Shown here one piece after another: positions 35,032 to 56,082 of a stretch of DNA of 64,000 nucleotides (positions are counted from its first letter, which is position 1; each line of letters begins with the position of its first letter). The stretch lies in the NCBI GenBank assembly GCA_902779945.1, contig CACZDN010000001.1:281716-345715 (forward strand), in the 5' to 3' direction. The position numbers and the translations under genes were made by a program. Below the pieces are notes generated by a model. The model saw only the letters and a program-made list of their open reading frames with translations, had not been told where the DNA came from and ran no database searches. This stretch comes from Oscillospiraceae bacterium (GTDB taxonomy: Bacteria > Bacillota > Clostridia > Oscillospirales > Oscillospiraceae).

Positions 35032-35556
35032 GTGGTGTGTATGAAGAGTAAGATCAGAGATCAGCATGGCTTTACGCTGGCGGAGACGCTGCTTGCCGTA
35101 ATCATTCTGCTTCTGGCGTCGACCATTGTGGCGAGCGGGATCCCCGCGGCCAGGAACGCCTATGAAAAAGTCGTTCTCGCCTCCGACGCGGAGGTGCTTC
35201 TGTCTACCACCATATCCACGCTGCGCAACGAGCTGGGGATGGCGGAGATCATTTCGGTGAATAACAATTCGATCGTCTACTTTAACAAGGCAAGGGGAGC
35301 GAACGCGAAGATCTATCTCGGCAGCAGCGAACCGAAGGCGATCATGCTCGCGCGCTATTATAAAGAAGGGGACGCAGATACGAACGAGGCGCTGATCTCG
35401 GACCCCGCCTCCACCGACAATATGTATGTGACGTTCAGCCAAATCGTGCGCGGCGATGGCTACCTTACCTTCAAAAATCTGCAGGTCAATCGAAAAAACG
35501 GCGGCACCGGTCTGGCCGGTCCCCGGGATTACTCCGTGCGCGTTTCTTCTTCGTAA
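35032..35556 (+). CDS. Type IV prepilin
   Basis: A 174-residue protein with a textbook class III leader: charged residues, HG then FTLAETLLAVIILLLAST, cleavage between Gly and Phe, Glu at +5. The mature part is a 160-residue pilin-like chain. The GTG at 35032, seven bases after AGAGGG, is preferred over the ATG at 35041, which is too far from the site. The TAA stop is immediately followed by the terminal repeat of a small mobile element, which may have truncated or replaced the original end. Confidence 0.85.
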   Translation: MVCMKSKIRDQHGFTLAETLLAVIILLLASTIVASGIPAARNAYEKVVLASDAEVLLSTTISTLRNELGMAEIISVNNNSIVYFNKARGANAKIYLGSSEPKAIMLARYYKEGDADTNEALISDPASTDNMYVTFSQIVRGDGYLTFKNLQVNRKNGGTGLAGPRDYSVRVSSS

Positions 35557-35690
35557 GGCAATACCGCATAATTCGGCAAGAACAGATCCTGAGAAAATTT
35601 GGGTTCTGATAAAGGCGCTTTTTCGCAGATGTACTTTGTGTACCTCAAGGAATCCAGGAGATGCCGCAGGCGGATTGCGCGGTGTTGCCG
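35557..35690. repeat. AGGCAATACCGC element, copy A (short form)
   Basis: Terminal inverted repeats AGGCAATACCGC (left) and GCGGTGTTGCC (right) bound 134 bases that align with copies at 42211-42370 and 55803-55963 but lack about 26 internal bases. It begins at the stop codon of the prepilin gene and sits inside the pilin operon. No protein is encoded. MITE-like. Confidence 0.8.
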
Positions 35691-42164: not shown

Positions 42165-42210
42165 CGCCCCGCAAGGAGAAAAACGCTGCTCGTTCCGCAA
42201 GAATACCCTA

Positions 42211-42370
42211 AGGCAATACCGCATAATTCGGCGAGAGCGAATCCTGAGAAAATTTGGGTTCTGATGAAGGCATTTTTTGCAGGAATACTTTGTGTATTGC
42301 AAGAAAAAGTGACAAAATCAGAGCGCGAATTTTCCAGGAGGCGCCGAAGGCGGATTGTGCGGTGCTGCCC
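42211..42370. repeat. AGGCAATACCGC element, copy B
   Basis: A 160-base unit with terminal repeats AGGCAATACCGC and GCGGTGCTGCCC. It is nearly identical to the reverse complement of copy C at 55803-55963 and longer than copy A. TA flanks both ends, suggesting a TA target duplication. No coding potential; MITE-like. Confidence 0.85.
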
Positions 42371-42414: not shown

Positions 42415-42444
42415 TTGCCATGTCAAACGGGAGCGTGCTATAAT
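42415..42444 (+). promoter_or_regulatory. Promoter of the partner-switching cluster
   Basis: TTGCCA (42415-42420), an 18-base spacer and a perfect TATAAT (42439-42444), about 30 bases before the first gene. It lies just downstream of mobile-element copy B. Confidence 0.7.
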
Positions 42445-42475: not shown

Positions 42476-43381
42476 TTGATCATTTTGGTTTTTGAACCGC
42501 TCAGCTTTTCTCATAAAACCGCCGTTGACGCGCTGACCGCAAAATACGGGGAGGGCTCCTGCCAGCATTCCTTCGTCACGCTGTATAGCCTTCAGGAGAA
42601 ATACGGAGACACTGCGTGCATTGAGGACGGCACGCTCTATGTCCGGCGTGAGAAGCTCTGCACCGATGCGCTGAGCGTCTGTCTGCTCCCCCTCGGAGCG
42701 GCGGAGCCCGAACAGAGCGTGGGGCGGCTGCTGGAGGATGCGCACCGGAGAGGGACACGGCTTCGCTTCTTTACCGCGACGGAGCGGGCGGCGCAGACCC
42801 TGCGGGAGATCTTTCCCGGGCGCTTTACATACGAGGAGAACCGGGACTACGCGGAATACCTCTATGATACGCGGCGCCTGGCCGGGATGTCCGGGCCGGA
42901 GCTGTCAAAAAAGCGCAGCAATCTCCGCCGCTTTTACCGCAGCTGCCCGGGCGAGCTGCGCACGGAAGCGCTCGAGTCCGCGCGTTTTCCCGACGTGTAT
43001 GCGTTTCTGGACAACTGGCTCGCGCAGAATATGGAGGACCACGACGCGCACGCGCTCAGGCGGGAGCGGAAGAGTATCGAGATGCAGCTGAACCATTTTG
43101 AAGATTTCAGACTCCGCGGCGTCGTCGTCTATATCGACGGAAAACTCTGCGGCTTTGCCTACGGAACCCCGCTCTCGGATACCGTATTCGACGGTCTTGT
43201 CATGAAGGGGGACCGGAGCGTCTGCCAGCTCGGCGTGCTGCTGTACCGGGAGATGGCGCTGCGCTGCGGCTGCGCGCTCCTCAACGCCGAGGAGGACCTG
43301 GGCATCCCCGGCCTGCGGGAGAGCAAGCTCTCCTATCATCCTGACAGGCTTCTGAAAAAATATGTTATAACCGAGGTTTGA
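42476..43381 (+). CDS. DUF2156 / LPG-synthase C-terminal-like acyltransferase
   Basis: A 301-residue protein resembling the cytosolic domain of phosphatidylglycerol lysyltransferases (MprF) and free DUF2156 proteins, with a GNAT fold. Family-like segments are ELSKKRSNLRRFYR, LDNWL, HFEDFRLRGVVVYIDGKLCGFAYG and a C-terminal NAEEDLGIPGLRESKLSYHPDRLLKKY. There is no membrane domain, so it probably does not flip lipids itself. Start uncertain: TTG at 42476 follows AAAGG closely; TTG at 42485 is the alternative. The stop is three bases before the next gene. Substrate unknown. Confidence 0.8.
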   Translation: MIILVFEPLSFSHKTAVDALTAKYGEGSCQHSFVTLYSLQEKYGDTACIEDGTLYVRREKLCTDALSVCLLPLGAAEPEQSVGRLLEDAHRRGTRLRFFTATERAAQTLREIFPGRFTYEENRDYAEYLYDTRRLAGMSGPELSKKRSNLRRFYRSCPGELRTEALESARFPDVYAFLDNWLAQNMEDHDAHALRRERKSIEMQLNHFEDFRLRGVVVYIDGKLCGFAYGTPLSDTVFDGLVMKGDRSVCQLGVLLYREMALRCGCALLNAEEDLGIPGLRESKLSYHPDRLLKKYVITEV

Positions 43382-43384
43382 TCC

Positions 43385-45196
43385 ATGAATAAGCTGGAAG
43401 CCAATGCCTCCCTGCTGATTATCACGTTTTTCGCCTCCATCCAGTACGCCTTTCTCACCGGCGTCCCGGAAGGCGTCTCTCAATTCGCGTTTCTCAGCGT
43501 GACCAACCTGGTTGGATTTCTCATCATGCTGATGTTCTTCTTCGGGGAGCTGTTCCGCCTCGACGCCAAGCAGGTGAAGCAGTCCATCCTGCTCTCGGCG
43601 GAACTTCTGGGGGCGAACACGCTGATCCTCTTCGGCTCGGCCGAGACGGGAGGGACGGTCGTCGCGTGCGTGACCTCCGCCTACTTCGTCCTGATTCCCC
43701 TCTTCGCCTTCCTGCTTTTCAAGGAAAAGCCGGACGTGACCACCTTCCCGGGCATCGCCGTCGTGCTGGTCGGCCTGTTCCTGATGATGAACGCCGACGT
43801 GAGCAGCCTCTTCACCCGCGGCGTGCTCTACCTGCTGGGGGCGGACGTATTCATCACGCTCTATTTCCTCACGCTCTCGCGCTTTGCCACCACCTCAAAC
43901 CCGTCCATCATCGCCATGGGGCAGATGTTCTTCTCCTTCCTCTTCGCCCTGGTGCTGTGGATCGGGGAGAGCGCGCTGCGCCACACCGGCCTCTCGCTGC
44001 CGACGGACCCGTCCTTCTGGGCCGCGGTCATCTTCATCAGCTTCTTTATCCGCGGACTCTACGGTATCGTGCAGATCTACGCCATGCGCTATGTCTCGCC
44101 CCTGAACGCGGCGCTGATCTTCTCCTCCGAGATCGTCATGACCCTCGCAATGAGTCCGGTGATGGCCACCGTCTTCGGAATGCCGGCGGAGGAGATCACC
44201 TCCCTGCGCGCCCTCGGCGCCGTCGTCATGGTGGCGGGCATCCTGCTGGCGGACAGCGCCGTCTATAAGGTCGTCAGGGAGAGCATCCTCGCGCCGAAGG
44301 ATTACCGGCGCATCGCGGGTGTTGTGCTGCTCTCCGCCGTGCTGTACTTTGCCTTTGACGTGATGGTGCAGGCGACGCGCTTTTTGACCTTCGGCCCGAT
44401 CGCGGGCCTCAAGAACTTTCTGCCGGTTACATTGGGCGTGATTTGCGGCCCTCTGGGGCCGATCGGCTGCTGCCTCGGCTGCGTCGCGGCCGGGCGTTTT
44501 GTCGGCAACAGCTGGAGCTGGATCGGCGCGGAGTGCATATGCACGCTCATCATCGGCATCGGGATGTGGATGCTCTGGCCCATCTTCTCCAAGGAGCCCT
44601 GCATGCGCCTGAAAACGCCGCGAGACTACGTTACCTATTTCCTCGTGCTGGGCGCGCTGTCGCTGCTCGGCGGTCTTGCTGCGGTGGCCTTTCTGGGGCA
44701 GAGCGTCTTTCTTGCCGTATGCGGCGCCTATTTCTTCATGGGCAGCTTCGTCGGCATCCCCGTCAATGTCCTGCTGTCCAGCCTCCTCCATATTGATCCC
44801 GTCCTGCCGAGAGGCGGCCAGCGCAAGGACGATATCGTCGGCATAATGGACTGCCCGGAGAGTCTGGGACAGATCAATGAGCAGATCGAGGATTACTGCC
44901 TTTCGCACAGGATCGGCATGAAGAAGGTCTTCGAGGTCGAAAACTGCGTGGAAGAGATCGCCATCCGTATCTTCCGGTCACTGCCGGAGACGAAGGTCGG
45001 CATCGCGATGATGTTCGGAGACACGATCTCGCTCCGGATCGACTATCCTGGCAGCCGCTACAACCCCCTGCGCAAGGGCCCGGAGGAGGACGAGACGGAG
45101 ATCGCCGGCCTGAGTCTGCTGCGCCATCGGGCGCTGCGTGCCTCCTACAGCTATGGCAGTGCAAAAAAGGAAAACCATGTACATATCGTGATTTGA
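43385..45196 (+). CDS. EamA-like transporter fused to a second membrane domain and a degenerate RsbW-like ATPase domain
   Basis: A 603-residue protein in three parts. Residues 1-300 have about ten helices and look like a drug/metabolite (EamA) transporter. Residues 315-470 add about five helices with KNFLPVTLGVICGPLGPIG, similar in feel to ECF-S/MASE-type membrane sensor domains. Residues 490-603 align by eye with the RsbW-like protein encoded 2 kb downstream (CVEEI; RYNPL against PYDPL; GLSLL against GLGIY). The N-box Asn is Arg here and the G2 box is altered, so kinase activity is doubtful. Lies between the acyltransferase and the phosphatase with gaps of 3 and 15 bases. Role is inferred: membrane sensing linked to partner switching. 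Confidence 0.75.
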   Translation: MNKLEANASLLIITFFASIQYAFLTGVPEGVSQFAFLSVTNLVGFLIMLMFFFGELFRLDAKQVKQSILLSAELLGANTLILFGSAETGGTVVACVTSAYFVLIPLFAFLLFKEKPDVTTFPGIAVVLVGLFLMMNADVSSLFTRGVLYLLGADVFITLYFLTLSRFATTSNPSIIAMGQMFFSFLFALVLWIGESALRHTGLSLPTDPSFWAAVIFISFFIRGLYGIVQIYAMRYVSPLNAALIFSSEIVMTLAMSPVMATVFGMPAEEITSLRALGAVVMVAGILLADSAVYKVVRESILAPKDYRRIAGVVLLSAVLYFAFDVMVQATRFLTFGPIAGLKNFLPVTLGVICGPLGPIGCCLGCVAAGRFVGNSWSWIGAECICTLIIGIGMWMLWPIFSKEPCMRLKTPRDYVTYFLVLGALSLLGGLAAVAFLGQSVFLAVCGAYFFMGSFVGIPVNVLLSSLLHIDPVLPRGGQRKDDIVGIMDCPESLGQINEQIEDYCLSHRIGMKKVFEVENCVEEIAIRIFRSLPETKVGIAMMFGDTISLRIDYPGSRYNPLRKGPEEDETEIAGLSLLRHRALRASYSYGSAKKENHVHIVI

Positions 45197-45211
45197 ACAG
45201 GAGGTGCTTGC

Positions 45212-47251
45212 GTGGAAGCAAAAAAAAGAAAACCGATACGCCGCCGGATCCAATCCATCGTAATGACCATCTGCATCGTTGCGGTGCTGGTCGCGGGCGT
45301 CGTCGGGCTTATCAGCATGTTCAGCATCCGCAGCATCAGCGAAAAGGCGCTCATCGGCGGCACGGTGCAGAACGTCGGCAACCTGGCGCAGAGCAAGGCG
45401 GAGCTCGCCGATGCGGAGCTGAACGCCTATGAAGCCACGGTCCAGCGCCTGGCGGAGTACATCGACGATCTCTACGCCCATCCCGACCGCTATGTCCGGC
45501 GGGAGATCCTGCCGCCCAGCAAGGCCGCGGCGGGGGAGTATGTGCTGCAGCGCGGCTTCGTGTCCGAGGAGATCAAACTTCAGGACGTGGAGGACGAGCT
45601 GGGACTTCTGAGCAACGTCGAGCAGGCGTTCCGCCCCGTCATACTGGGCGCAAAGGGCACGATCACCACCATGTATCTCGGCACGGAGAGCGGCGTCATG
45701 ATCTCCTACGACGCGGCCTCGGAGGTCGGGGACAACGAGGAGGGCAGCGAGATTTACTTCAACTACCGGGAGAGACCCTGGTATGTCGCAACGATCACGC
45801 AGGACGGCTCGAGCATCTCCCCGGTCTATACGGACGACTACGGCCGCGGCCTGATGATCAGCGTAGCGGCGCCCTTCCAGAACGCGGCAGGGGAAAACCA
45901 CGGCGTTGTATGTATTGACATTTTGATCTCGGACCTCTACAATGAAGTTGTGCGGCTCGACATGGAGGAAGAGGCCTACGCCTTCCTGGTCGACAGCGAG
46001 GGCAACATGATCTCGCCGGACAGCTCGGGCGGGTCGATCTATCAAAATGCCGAACTGGACGACAGCGTCCGGCAGAGCATCCTCAACCGGAAAACCGGCG
46101 TCGAACAGGCGCAGACGGGCGTGTATTTCGCCTACGCGCCGGTCAGCGCGGTGCCCTGGATGTTCTGCATCCGTATCCCGCAGTCCATGATCCTGGAGCC
46201 GGTGAGCCAGATCGAGAGCAGCATCTCCCGCTCAATTCTGTCCTATATCGGCGTGATCATACTGGTCAGCCTTTTCGTAACGCTGATCGTGGGGAAATTC
46301 TCCGTCTCGCTGACCGAGCCTCTGATCGAGCTCGGGAACGACGCACGGGCAATCAGCGGCGGCGACTTCGACCACCGGGCGGAGGGCTATGCCAACGACG
46401 AGATCGGCGACCTGGCGGTGACCTTCAACGACATGGCCGCCGCGCTCAAGCAGTTCATAACGGACCTCACGGCCGTCACGGCGGAGAAGGAACGCATCGG
46501 CGCGGAGCTGAACGTCGCGACGCAGATCCAGGCGGATATGCTGCCGCGTATCTTCCCGCCCTTCCCGGACCGCAACGAGTTTGACCTCTACGCCACCATG
46601 ACCCCCGCCAAGGAGGTCGGCGGCGACTTCTACGACTTCTTCCTTGTCGACGAGGATCATCTGGGCCTCGTCATGGCGGACGTCTCCGGCAAGGGCGTAC
46701 CGGCGGCCCTTTTCATGGTCATTGCCAAGACGCTCATCAAGAACCGCGCGCAGATGGGCGGCGGTCCCGCCGAGATCCTGCGCTATGTCAACGAGCAGCT
46801 CTGTGAGGGCAACGAGGCCGAGCTTTTCGTGACCGTGTGGCTTGCCATCGTGGAGATCTCCACAGGCAGGGGCCTCGCCGCCAACGCCGGTCACGAGCAT
46901 CCCGTCATCCGCCGCGCCGACGGGAGCTGGGAGCTTTCAATTTACCGCCATTCGCCCGCCGTTGCGACGATGGAAGGGATACGCTTCAGGGAGCACAGCT
47001 TCGAGCTGCACCCCGGCGACGCGCTCTTCGTGTACACCGACGGCGTGGCCGAGGCGACCGACGCCTCGAACGAGCTGTTCGGTACGGACAGGATGCTCGC
47101 GGCCCTCAACCGCGAACCGGACGCCGAGCCGAGGCGGCTGCTGGAAAACGTCAAGGAAGAGCTCGACGCCTTCGTCGGCAGCGCCCCGCAGTTTGACGAT
47201 ATCACGATGCTGAGCATGATTTACAATGGATCGGAGGGGAGAACGACTTGA
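45212..47251 (+). CDS. Membrane sensor PP2C (SpoIIE/RsbU-type) phosphatase
   Basis: A 679-residue protein. Helix at 14-35; extracytoplasmic dCACHE-like domain about 40-335 (RERPWY at 186-191, typical of Cache modules); helix 341-361; HAMP linker 362-415; PP2C phosphatase about 430-672 with metal-binding Asp in GGDFYDF (470-476) and MADVSGKG (488-495), and FDDITML near the end. The family dephosphorylates STAS anti-anti-sigma proteins, here most likely the 47735 product. GTG start with GGAGG seven bases upstream. The stop overlaps the kinase gene. Confidence 0.92.
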   Translation: MEAKKRKPIRRRIQSIVMTICIVAVLVAGVVGLISMFSIRSISEKALIGGTVQNVGNLAQSKAELADAELNAYEATVQRLAEYIDDLYAHPDRYVRREILPPSKAAAGEYVLQRGFVSEEIKLQDVEDELGLLSNVEQAFRPVILGAKGTITTMYLGTESGVMISYDAASEVGDNEEGSEIYFNYRERPWYVATITQDGSSISPVYTDDYGRGLMISVAAPFQNAAGENHGVVCIDILISDLYNEVVRLDMEEEAYAFLVDSEGNMISPDSSGGSIYQNAELDDSVRQSILNRKTGVEQAQTGVYFAYAPVSAVPWMFCIRIPQSMILEPVSQIESSISRSILSYIGVIILVSLFVTLIVGKFSVSLTEPLIELGNDARAISGGDFDHRAEGYANDEIGDLAVTFNDMAAALKQFITDLTAVTAEKERIGAELNVATQIQADMLPRIFPPFPDRNEFDLYATMTPAKEVGGDFYDFFLVDEDHLGLVMADVSGKGVPAALFMVIAKTLIKNRAQMGGGPAEILRYVNEQLCEGNEAELFVTVWLAIVEISTGRGLAANAGHEHPVIRRADGSWELSIYRHSPAVATMEGIRFREHSFELHPGDALFVYTDGVAEATDASNELFGTDRMLAALNREPDAEPRRLLENVKEELDAFVGSAPQFDDITMLSMIYNGSEGRTT

Positions 47252-47655
47252 AGGAGCTGAGAATCGAGGCTGCGATCGACAGACTGGACGAGGTGCTGGC
47301 CTTTGTGGACACGGAGCTCGAGCTGATGGACTGCCCGATGAAAATCCAGATGCAGATCGACGTTGCCGTGGAGGAAATCTATGTCAACATCGCAAGCTAT
47401 GCGTACATGCCCGGCAGAGGGGACGCGATCATCCGCCTGGACACTGACCCTCAGCGGCGCCGCGTCGCAGTTACCTTTATAGACAGCGGCATCCCCTACG
47501 ACCCTCTGGCAAGAGAGGACCCGGACGTCACGCTCTCCGCGGAGGAGCGCGGGATCGGCGGCCTCGGGATCTATATGGTCAAGAAGAGTATGGACGATAT
47601 GAGCTATCGCTACGAAAACGGCCATAACATCCTCCGGATCGAAAAACAGATCTGA
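47248..47655 (+). CDS. RsbW-like anti-sigma serine kinase
   Basis: A 135-residue GHKL (HATPase_c_2) protein. N-box: AVEEIYVNIASYAY with the Asn; G1: DSGIPYDPL; G2: GIGGLGIYMVKKSMD. This is the ATP-binding core of RsbW/SpoIIAB kinases, which phosphorylate a STAS partner and sequester a sigma factor or other target. Starts with TTG sharing bases with the phosphatase stop (TTGA), after GGAGGGGAG. No sigma factor gene is in the cluster. Confidence 0.9.
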   Translation: MKELRIEAAIDRLDEVLAFVDTELELMDCPMKIQMQIDVAVEEIYVNIASYAYMPGRGDAIIRLDTDPQRRRVAVTFIDSGIPYDPLAREDPDVTLSAEERGIGGLGIYMVKKSMDDMSYRYENGHNILRIEKQI

Positions 47656-47734
47656 AAGGCCCCGCAGACAAAACCGTATGCAAAACATTTTTAACATAAT
47701 CCCATTACAAAAACGTGAAAAGGAGAAAAAAACA

Positions 47735-48034
47735 ATGCTGAACATCATCAAAACTAAGGAAGCTGATACCCTGAACGTCAAGCTGGAGGGCCGTCTGGAT
47801 ACGACCACCGCGCCGGAGCTCGAGGCCGAACTGAAAGCCGACCTGGGCGAGACCAAGGCCCTCGTCATGGATTTTGAGAAGCTGGAGTACATATCCTCGG
47901 CAGGCCTGCGTGTGCTGCTGTCCGCGCAGAAGGTGATGAACAAGCAGGGTGAGATGAAGATCATCCACGTCAACGACATCATCAACGAGATCTTCGAGGT
48001 CACCGGCTTCAGCGACATCCTGAATATCGAGTGA
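47735..48034 (+). CDS. RsbV-like STAS anti-anti-sigma factor
   Basis: A 99-residue STAS protein. LNVKLEGRLDTTTAPELE at the start and FEKLEYISSAGLRVLLSAQK in the middle are typical. Ser55 aligns with the phosphorylated Ser of RsbV/SpoIIAA. AAAGGAG lies eight bases upstream of the ATG at 47735; the earlier frame start is not used. It closes the cluster and is followed by a terminator. Expected cycle: phosphorylated by the 47248 kinase, reset by the 45212 phosphatase. Confidence 0.92.
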   Translation: MLNIIKTKEADTLNVKLEGRLDTTTAPELEAELKADLGETKALVMDFEKLEYISSAGLRVLLSAQKVMNKQGEMKIIHVNDIINEIFEVTGFSDILNIE

Positions 48035-48049
48035 GACCCCCAAAAAAGA

Positions 48050-48082
48050 ACGCTGCGAGCGCCGCTCGCAGCGTCTTTTTTG
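48050..48082. terminator. Terminator of the partner-switching cluster
   Basis: Near-perfect 11-bp palindrome CGCTGCGAGCG (48051-48061) with CGCTCGCAGCG (48063-48073), followed by TCTTTTTT and preceded by CAAAAAAG. Strong, and usable from both sides. A second copy of its 3' end, GCAGCGTCTTTTTTTGC, follows at 48088-48104. Confidence 0.85.
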
Positions 48083-55802: not shown

Positions 55803-55963
55803 AGGCAACACCGCACAATTTGCCTTCGGCGCCTCCTGGAAAATTTGCGCTCTGATTTTGTCACTTTTTCTTGAAATACACAAAGTATTCCTGCAAAAAA
55901 ATGCCTTCATCAGAACCTAGATTTTCTCAGGATTCGCTCTCGCCGAATTATGCGGTGTTGCCT
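55803..55963. repeat. AGGCAATACCGC element, copy C (inverted relative to B)
   Basis: A 161-base unit; its reverse complement matches copy B (42211-42370) with only about ten differences, including both terminal repeats. It has no open frame with coding features. Such similarity implies recent movement. Confidence 0.85.
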
Positions 55964-56082
55964 TCACGATTTGAGAACGGGCACATTCAACCCGCAGAGC
56001 CGGCCTCCTCAGAGAGAAGCCACCGTTTTTCACATTATGAAAATATAATTATGTTAACAGCATTATGAAAAATAATTTATTG

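Follow-up and report, generated by a model that had tools for sequence, protein, structure and literature searches.

A partner-switching gene cassette with a conserved, predicted RsbW-type pseudokinase on a two-part membrane module

Results

A five-gene unit in an Oscillospiraceae genome

We analyzed a 64,000-nucleotide stretch of DNA (the window) from an Oscillospiraceae bacterium (assembly GCA_902779945.1, contig CACZDN010000001.1, forward-strand positions 281,716 to 345,715), in which a cassette of five genes at 42476-48034 encodes the proteins of a partner switch together with an acyltransferase and a transporter. The five open reading frames (ORFs), taken from the ORF list of the window, lie on the + strand as one compact unit, with intergenic gaps among the listed ORFs of 3, 15, -4, and 22 bases. 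A preliminary description of the locus had placed this run between a promoter- and a terminator-like site, and the ORFs and both sites were found there; Pfam assigned the families given below:

42415..42444, + strand: sigma-70-like promoter, TTGCCA-18-TATAAT with TG before the -10 box (evidence limited to a consensus match, at 11 of 12 positions)
42476..43381, + strand: LPG_synthase_C acyltransferase (AcylT; PF09924, MprF synthase-type), TTG start (Pfam E 8.6e-33; solved relative 2hqy, E 3.2e-30)
43385..44281, + strand: EamA (DMT-type) transporter part, residues 1-299 of the fused protein (PF00892 E 6.2e-12, two stretches)
44282..44821, + strand: predicted six-helix membrane domain, residues 300-479, resembling energy-coupling factor (ECF) S components and QueT-related (AlphaFold2 model, weak Foldseek matches, QueT profile link); hereafter the S-like domain
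44822..45196, + strand: predicted RsbW-type GHKL pseudokinase domain, residues 480-603 (model, Foldseek, hhalign to RsbW, motif losses)
45212..47251, + strand: dCache_1-HAMP-SpoIIE PP2C-type serine phosphatase (Pfam; SpoIIE E 4.4e-44)
47248..47655, + strand: RsbW-like kinase with N, G1, and G2 boxes intact (PF13581, HATPase_c_2, E 7.8e-20; motif count)
47735..48034, + strand: RsbV/SpoIIAA-like STAS protein with a candidate phosphoserine (ISSAGLR) (PF01740 E 1.5e-14; TIGR00377 E 5.8e-20)
48050..48074, + strand: intrinsic terminator-like site (11-pair stem, loop of 3, T-run)

AcylT scores 114 bits against PF09924 (cut-off 27.5). The second protein, of 603 amino acids, consists of the EamA part (PF00892, 46.4 bits against a cut-off of 28.2, in two stretches), a second membrane domain (residues ~300-479), and a soluble domain. 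For the STAS gene, the likelier start is 47735 and not 47678, since the ATG there follows a ribosome-binding site (AAGGAG) and gives the 98-amino-acid length of its relatives. As the preliminary description had it, the unit holds no sigma factor: none was found among its five proteins or the six scanned neighbor proteins, including one without any family match.

The S-like domain, not EamA, is the conserved fusion partner of the pseudokinase

To place the cassette among its relatives, we counted it in several samples; the counts include the window genome, and the scan of the whole collection was pattern-based, so that absences from it are not proof. In the family sample (300 genomes), three genomes have the protein carrying the S-like and pseudokinase domains, one further match being a MATE fusion. 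The protein occurs in 2 of 61 genomes of the genus sample; 9 of 394 genomes match in the order sample, only two of them over both domains with strong scores. The pattern scan of 84,980 species genomes yielded 18 loci, hosted by Oscillospiraceae/Ruminococcaceae, Lachnospiraceae, other Clostridia, Agathobaculum, Treponema sp. C6A8, T. ruminis, a Synergistaceae metagenome-assembled genome (MAG), and two Victivallales MAGs, with which locus L041 groups as the same clade (support 100/100). Most of these loci come from MAGs and single placements may be wrong; that of T. ruminis is on a complete chromosome. The cassette is rare, and gut and rumen bacteria of several phyla share it.

Gene order was read in the window and these 18 loci (n = 19; not all independent, and with the shared contigs L007/L037, L008/L038, L019/L044, and L088/L028 counted once). 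EamA adjoins, or is fused to, the S-like/pseudokinase gene in 19/19, and SpoIIE lies within the unit in 19/19, directly downstream in 17 and upstream of AcylT in the two Agathobaculum loci. AcylT adjoins EamA at all 17 loci that are not cut there by a contig edge. No sigma factor belongs to the gene set common to the 19 loci, the relatives' flanks having been searched for one only to four proteins. The preliminary description had treated the EamA/RsbW fusion as the defining feature, and this did not hold: EamA is fused to the pseudokinase protein in only 3 of the 19 loci (the window and the two Treponema loci, L031 and L036) and is a separate gene in 16, including one genome of the window's own genus (L088/L028). 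The window and Treponema fusions fall in one weakly supported group that includes unfused members (80/84). We therefore rejected the EamA fusion as an essential feature; the conserved fusion is that of the S-component-like domain with the pseudokinase. A fusion not conserved beside the phosphatase, which the preliminary description had named as refuting its reading, is what the relatives show for the EamA fusion; the pseudokinase protein, by contrast, shares its unit with EamA and SpoIIE at every locus. Because the six genomes examined hold 2 to 11 SpoIIE matches each, this constant adjacency of SpoIIE is not expected by chance, with the proviso that the loci are not all independent.

Residues 480-603 form a conserved pseudokinase with a predicted RsbW-type fold

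By sequence, residues 480-603 fall under the Pfam cut-off for HATPase_c_2 (15.7 against 27.4 bits), and with this domain as query, sequence searches of solved structures found nothing related or significant. In hhalign, a profile of 19 family members matched a profile of 11 RsbW proteins at a probability of 96.6 (pairwise E 5.1e-10). The AlphaFold2 model of residues 300-603 (16 sequences; mean predicted local distance difference test score (pLDDT) 90.0, predicted template modeling score 0.82) has six membrane helices followed by strands and helices in an order that we take to be RsbW-type. Its top five Foldseek matches in the PDB were complex entries of UsfX-RsfB, SpoIIAB (two), and RsbV/RsbW (two), with a probability of 1.00, E values of 0.003-0.009 (none ≤0.001), and identities of 11-14%; the SiaB-SiaC entry 6kko stood at ranks 9 and 10. 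An RsbW/SpoIIAB-type GHKL fold for residues 480-603, proposed in the preliminary description, is thus predicted by the model and is well supported but not proven.

The loss of the N-box Asn (to Arg) and of the G2 glycines, first noted in the window protein, holds across the family, and the G1 Asp is lost as well. Among 22 copies of the domain, the N-box Asn is replaced by Arg in 19 and Leu in 3, the G1 Asp by Tyr in 21 and Ala in 1, and neither residue is kept in any copy. None of the 22 has the full G2 glycine motif, in whose place 15 carry a basic stretch, [RK]HRA[LI]R. Two N-box Glu residues are retained in all 22, and the Arg may occupy the ATP site, paired with a retained Glu. In the RsbW copies from the same loci, the Asn, the Asp, and the G2 glycines are intact in 16/16. 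For five pairs of relatives, the ratio of nonsynonymous to synonymous substitution rates (dN/dS) of the pseudokinase was 0.093, 0.125, 0.145, 0.170, and 0.320; the last comes from a nearly identical pair (dS 0.034) and is hence imprecise, and two of the five pairs include L043. At three loci of Victivallales type the domain is doubled in tandem behind the S-like domain (L041:425-1696, L042:6938-8239, and L043:6938-8239). Because the same replacements recur across four phyla and dN/dS is 0.09-0.32, the sequences indicate that the pseudokinase is conserved and not decaying.

The S-like domain and EamA are a recurring pair

Modeled alone with AlphaFold2 from 22 sequences, the S-like domain forms six helices (pLDDT 90.3), and its two best PDB matches by Foldseek, both weak, are the ECF S components FolT (5jsz) and RibU (5kc0) (probability 0.82; E 0.55 and 0.69). 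A profile of the domain matched 18 of 391 genomes in a class sample, nine of the matches reaching E ~1e-20 or better, including the window's own; contexts were read for the other eight strong matches and two weaker ones. At five of the eight (L078, L079, L081, L082, and L084), EamA is followed by a free-standing S-like copy, with no SpoIIE in the 12 kb read. At L083, a pair of ABC ATPases and a CbiQ/EcfT protein precede the copy, which is itself a QueT protein (PF06177 E 2.7e-19); the copies at L080 and L085 stand in other contexts, that of L085 adjoining two SpoIIE genes. The domain also adjoins EamA in L025, and SpoIIE proteins of L022, L023, and L024 carry it as their N-terminal part. Together, the profile link and the weak fold match suggest that the S-like domain is related to ECF S components (QueT). 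EamA and the S-like subunit are thus a recurring pair, and since such pairs occur without SpoIIE nearby, the pseudokinase was probably added to an existing membrane pair. Two side observations concern these loci: the S-like region of L085:4128-6548 lies in a frame of 807 amino acids that also encodes a nucleoside-phosphorylase domain (PNP_UDP_1) and weakly matches radical-SAM, and L078:173-595 is a small ORF with a Nif11 domain (E 5.2e-13).

A predicted six-helix fold, weakly matched, and a profile link connect the cassette domain to the ECF S components QueT, FolT, and RibU; it differs from them in being fused to a pseudokinase, in being paired with EamA, and in having no EcfA gene in the cassette itself (EcfT was not searched for). 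EcfA-type genes lie 4.3 kb downstream of the S-like domain in the window, outside the unit. A similar ATPase was found at only 2 of the 18 relatives' loci (L038 and L045), 3.4 and 4.9 kb past the last cassette gene; with 16 of 18 lacking one in the DNA available, we rejected an ECF transporter that uses these downstream genes as part of the cassette.

The phosphatase, kinase, and STAS proteins

The window phosphatase carries GGDFYD, DVSGKG, YTDG, and QFDDIT, which we take to be the metal-binding motifs of PP2C-type (SpoIIE) phosphatases; among its relatives, a simple motif search gave no match for GGDFYD in L031, for YTDG in L030, and for the last motif in L028, L029, and L040. Its best NCBIfam match is SiaA, far under the cut-off (84 of 700 bits). 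The SSAGLR site, one Ser of which is presumably the phosphorylated residue, is present in 9/9 listed STAS proteins. In L029 (3942-5078), an RsbW domain ends a 379-amino-acid ORF that has an APH phosphotransferase match at its front (E 6.9e-7).

We also considered whether the dCACHE domain senses autoinducer-2 (AI-2). A signature of AI-2 receptors is R126, W128, Y144, D146, and D173 in PctA numbering (PMC9540692). With positions placed by eye, W128, Y144, D146, D173, and the neighboring Y129 are present in 19/19 proteins, and the window protein has Arg at the position equated with R126. This Arg occurs in just 4 of the 19, so AI-2 sensing was rejected and we claim no ligand.

MATE-RsbW fusions suggest a wider pattern

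A profile of the RsbW-type domains that are fused to MATE transporters matched 48 of 245 genomes of the order sample, part of the matches being ordinary RsbW proteins. Neighborhoods were read for 34 MATE-RsbW proteins, from seed loci gathered by biased searches, and in 17 of them SpoIIE, RsbW, or STAS lies within 3.5 kb on the same strand; by this rule L119 and L123 count as without such a gene despite having an opposite-strand SpoIIE and STAS-RsbW gene, the nearer one 3.7 kb off. By our own profiles, eight MATE-RsbW genes adjoin PF09924, GH3, or AMP-binding enzymes (L009, L020, L021, L026, L032, L050, L135, and L136), and Pfam confirmed GH3 in L009, L020, and L021, PF09924 in L026, L032, and L050, and AMP-binding in L050. 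At L032, the MATE-RsbW gene lies directly upstream of a STAS-AcylT-EamA-S-like/pseudokinase-SpoIIE run. The Asn is missing from the MATE-fused RsbW domain in 12 of the 17 proteins beside a switch gene and in 2 of the 17 others (Fisher p 0.0013). Asn loss changed only three times on the tree (33 of the 34 rows used, without the broken L135), and a phylogenetically independent test cannot reach significance; given this shared ancestry and the biased seeds, we keep the correlation as a hint only. The MATE-RsbW fusions hint at a wider class.

Several further observations were made at these loci. L054 (G000:C4:53000-64000, in the window's genome) has a nonribosomal peptide synthetase-like AMP-binding/PP-binding/Condensation protein and a MATE transporter, divergent from a SpoIIE-STAS pair, and L050 (G654:C32) is a row of AMP-binding, PF09924-GNAT, AMP-binding, and MATE-RsbW genes. 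Eleven proteins of 525-539 amino acids (L119, L121-L124, L141-L143, and L146-L148) have, by our own profiles, a STAS-type front and an RsbW-type end, and often adjoin SpoIIE and a separate STAS gene. In L009, a small Nif11-domain ORF (L009:9-443, E 7.8e-9), of a kind that we take to encode leader peptides, immediately precedes the MATE-RsbW gene.

Flanking genes and repeats in the window

The three proteins scanned 5' of the cassette comprise one PilM, one T2SSM-type protein, and one without a family match; those 3' of it are a methyltransferase and two ABC ATPases. A plasmid search gave no match, and a library of defense systems gave nothing at E 0.001. A repeat of ~160 bases occurs at 42210-42369, at 55804-55964 (inverted), and in part at 35554-35642; it lies in a self-foldable stretch (DNA fold z -5.7) and resembles a miniature inverted-repeat transposable element or a repetitive extragenic palindromic sequence. 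A single 151-base query matched the genome 48 times (40 of 272 candidates scored), and one copy stops ~45 bases 5' of the cassette's -35 box.

Discussion

We read the cassette as a form of partner switching in which a conserved pseudokinase sits on a membrane module of two parts. The full-text literature that we searched, which left out most subscription papers, held no account of a transporter fused to an RsbW-type domain. The cassette resembles RsbU-RsbV-RsbW and SpoIIE-SpoIIAA-SpoIIAB in that one unit combines a PP2C phosphatase, a GHKL kinase, and a STAS protein, with their usual motifs, and differs in lacking a sigma factor, in having a second, dead RsbW-type domain fixed to a membrane protein, and in including acyltransferase and transporter genes. 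SiaABCD is alike as a partner switch (SiaA is the window phosphatase's best NCBIfam match, under the cut-off, and 6kko is among the fold matches), whereas its effector is a diguanylate cyclase and not a transporter, and to our knowledge it has no pseudokinase. In this Pseudomonas system, with SiaA as phosphatase and SiaB as kinase, unphosphorylated SiaC directly binds the non-sigma effector SiaD (PMC8457831). MprF has a flippase plus lysyl-phosphatidylglycerol synthase layout (PMC5898192) and is alike in that a PF09924 synthase-type domain works with a membrane domain; in the cassette, the synthase domain is free-standing and its membrane neighbor is EamA with the S-like domain, and no Pfam family of the MprF flippase was found in the five cassette proteins. 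The sulfate transporters that we take to be the SulP/SLC26 family likewise have a partner-switching-type domain fused to a transporter; they carry the STAS side, and the cassette carries the kinase side, catalytically dead. The occurrence of the STAS domain in sulfate transporters is described in PMC10120452. In Chlamydia, a degenerate partner-switch member, CT_589, is proposed to sequester RsbV proteins (PMC5177608); CT_589 is a phosphatase paralogue whose phosphatase domain does not work, while the cassette has a dead kinase on a transporter.

We propose, with our confidence evenly balanced, that the cassette is a partner-switching circuit whose output is a membrane transport and modification module rather than a sigma factor. 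The dCACHE domain of the phosphatase would sense an extracellular signal and set the dephosphorylation of the STAS protein, which the intact RsbW would phosphorylate. Unphosphorylated STAS would leave RsbW and dock on the RsbW-derived pseudokinase attached to the S-like subunit, and, with the S-like subunit working with EamA, docking would open or close the transporter. It would perhaps also direct the MprF-type acyltransferase, with EamA moving the product of this enzyme across the membrane. The docking of STAS, the direction of control, the cargo, and the role of the acyltransferase are all inferred. EamA, the S-like/pseudokinase protein, and SpoIIE co-occur in 19/19 loci in a common set without a sigma factor, and we read AcylT, EamA, and the S-like/pseudokinase protein as the output because they are the only other genes common to the loci. 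The pseudokinase may, judging from its motifs, bind STAS without phosphorylating it, and a dead RsbW-type domain of this sort could report the state of STAS to the transporter, as SiaC does to SiaD, a precedent for a target other than a sigma factor. The uniform motif losses beside intact RsbW copies, the dN/dS values, and the EamA/S-like pairs without SpoIIE nearby also speak for the proposal, as does the finding that the domain's top fold matches are entries of kinase-STAS complexes. From the PF09924 domain and the layout of MprF (PMC5898192), we suggest that the cargo may be an aminoacyl or acyl product moved by EamA. The MATE-RsbW genes beside SpoIIE, RsbW, or STAS would be a parallel design, with one such gene, at L032, in the same cluster as the cassette, and count for a transporter as output.

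Several observations weigh against this proposal. RsbW (free, or fused to SpoIIE or another protein) is present in the available DNA of 12 of the 19 loci and STAS in that of just 9, and neither is found at L028, whose contig stops 74 bases past the last SpoIIE codon, nor at L031, L036, L039, and L040. In both Treponema, neither adjoins the cassette, and SpoIIE-RsbW and STAS genes lie elsewhere in both genomes. RsbW is under somewhat tighter constraint than the pseudokinase (dN/dS 0.039-0.126, four pairs). The S-like domain as the N-terminus of SpoIIE proteins in L022-L024 fits a sensor role, and the pseudokinase could equally pass information from the transporter to the switch.

This last direction, in which the transporter reports the state of the membrane, was favored in the preliminary description and is possible; a switch that controls the transport module fits the gene content better. 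As a full model, EamA and the S-like domain would be a sensor or transceptor, and a substrate or the state of the membrane would change the pseudokinase, which would sequester or release STAS, the output being a target of RsbW or STAS elsewhere. The N-terminal S-like domains of the SpoIIE phosphatases and the further RsbW-type domains and RsbW and STAS genes elsewhere in the genomes speak for it. We nevertheless judge it rather unlikely: the locus already holds a sensor in the dCACHE-SpoIIE protein, and no candidate target gene recurs, the other common genes being only AcylT, EamA, and the S-like/pseudokinase gene.

The pseudokinase might instead pair with intact RsbW, as a mixed dimer, or with SpoIIE, and tune its activity at the membrane rather than bind STAS. 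RsbW and SpoIIAB proteins dimerize and pseudokinases are often allosteric partners, and SpoIIE is, in the DNA available, the sole switch protein beside the pseudokinase at L031, L036, L039, and L040; none of the 19 loci has a SpoIIE-pseudokinase fusion, and we consider this arrangement distinctly unlikely. Very unlikely, in our view, is conventional sigma control in trans, with the cassette RsbW or the pseudokinase binding a sigma factor from another locus. Three sigma-70 region-3 matches, all away from the cassette, occur in the window genome, and canonical partner switches act on sigma factors (PMC5177608), but the common gene set holds no sigma factor within the flanks searched, and the single sigma/anti-sigma-like pair seen in the window genome, the only sigma factor with an RsbW-type neighbor, sits on a different contig (C31). 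That the pseudokinase is a functionless, decaying remnant, as its missing ATP-site residues might suggest, is hardly credible given the same replacements in four phyla, dN/dS of 0.09-0.32, and the tandem duplication retained in three related Victivallales-type loci.

More generally, the transporter-output proposal may extend to a class of partner-switched transporters, an idea that we hold tentatively and doubt slightly more than we credit. Such a class would comprise exporters of unrelated families (EamA/S-component-like and MATE) with RsbW-derived receptor domains, often dead kinases, controlled by the phosphorylation state of STAS and usually found with enzymes that build the cargo by transferring acyl or adenylate groups. 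For the family seen in the window, a fixed Arg and Tyr would form the core of a remodeled ATP pocket, which may take up a ligand other than a nucleotide.

Freeing sigma factors is the main known use of partner switching; a few cases act on other targets. If a switch here does end on a membrane transporter, partner switching would extend to the direct control of transport and envelope chemistry, RsbW-type proteins without a sigma partner would have a role, and there would be a handle on the unexplained MATE-RsbW fusion proteins of Clostridia. The rebuilt pocket of the pseudokinase is a testable object, and the cassette, if read correctly, suggests that bacteria may put a transporter, and not genes, under the control of such a switch.

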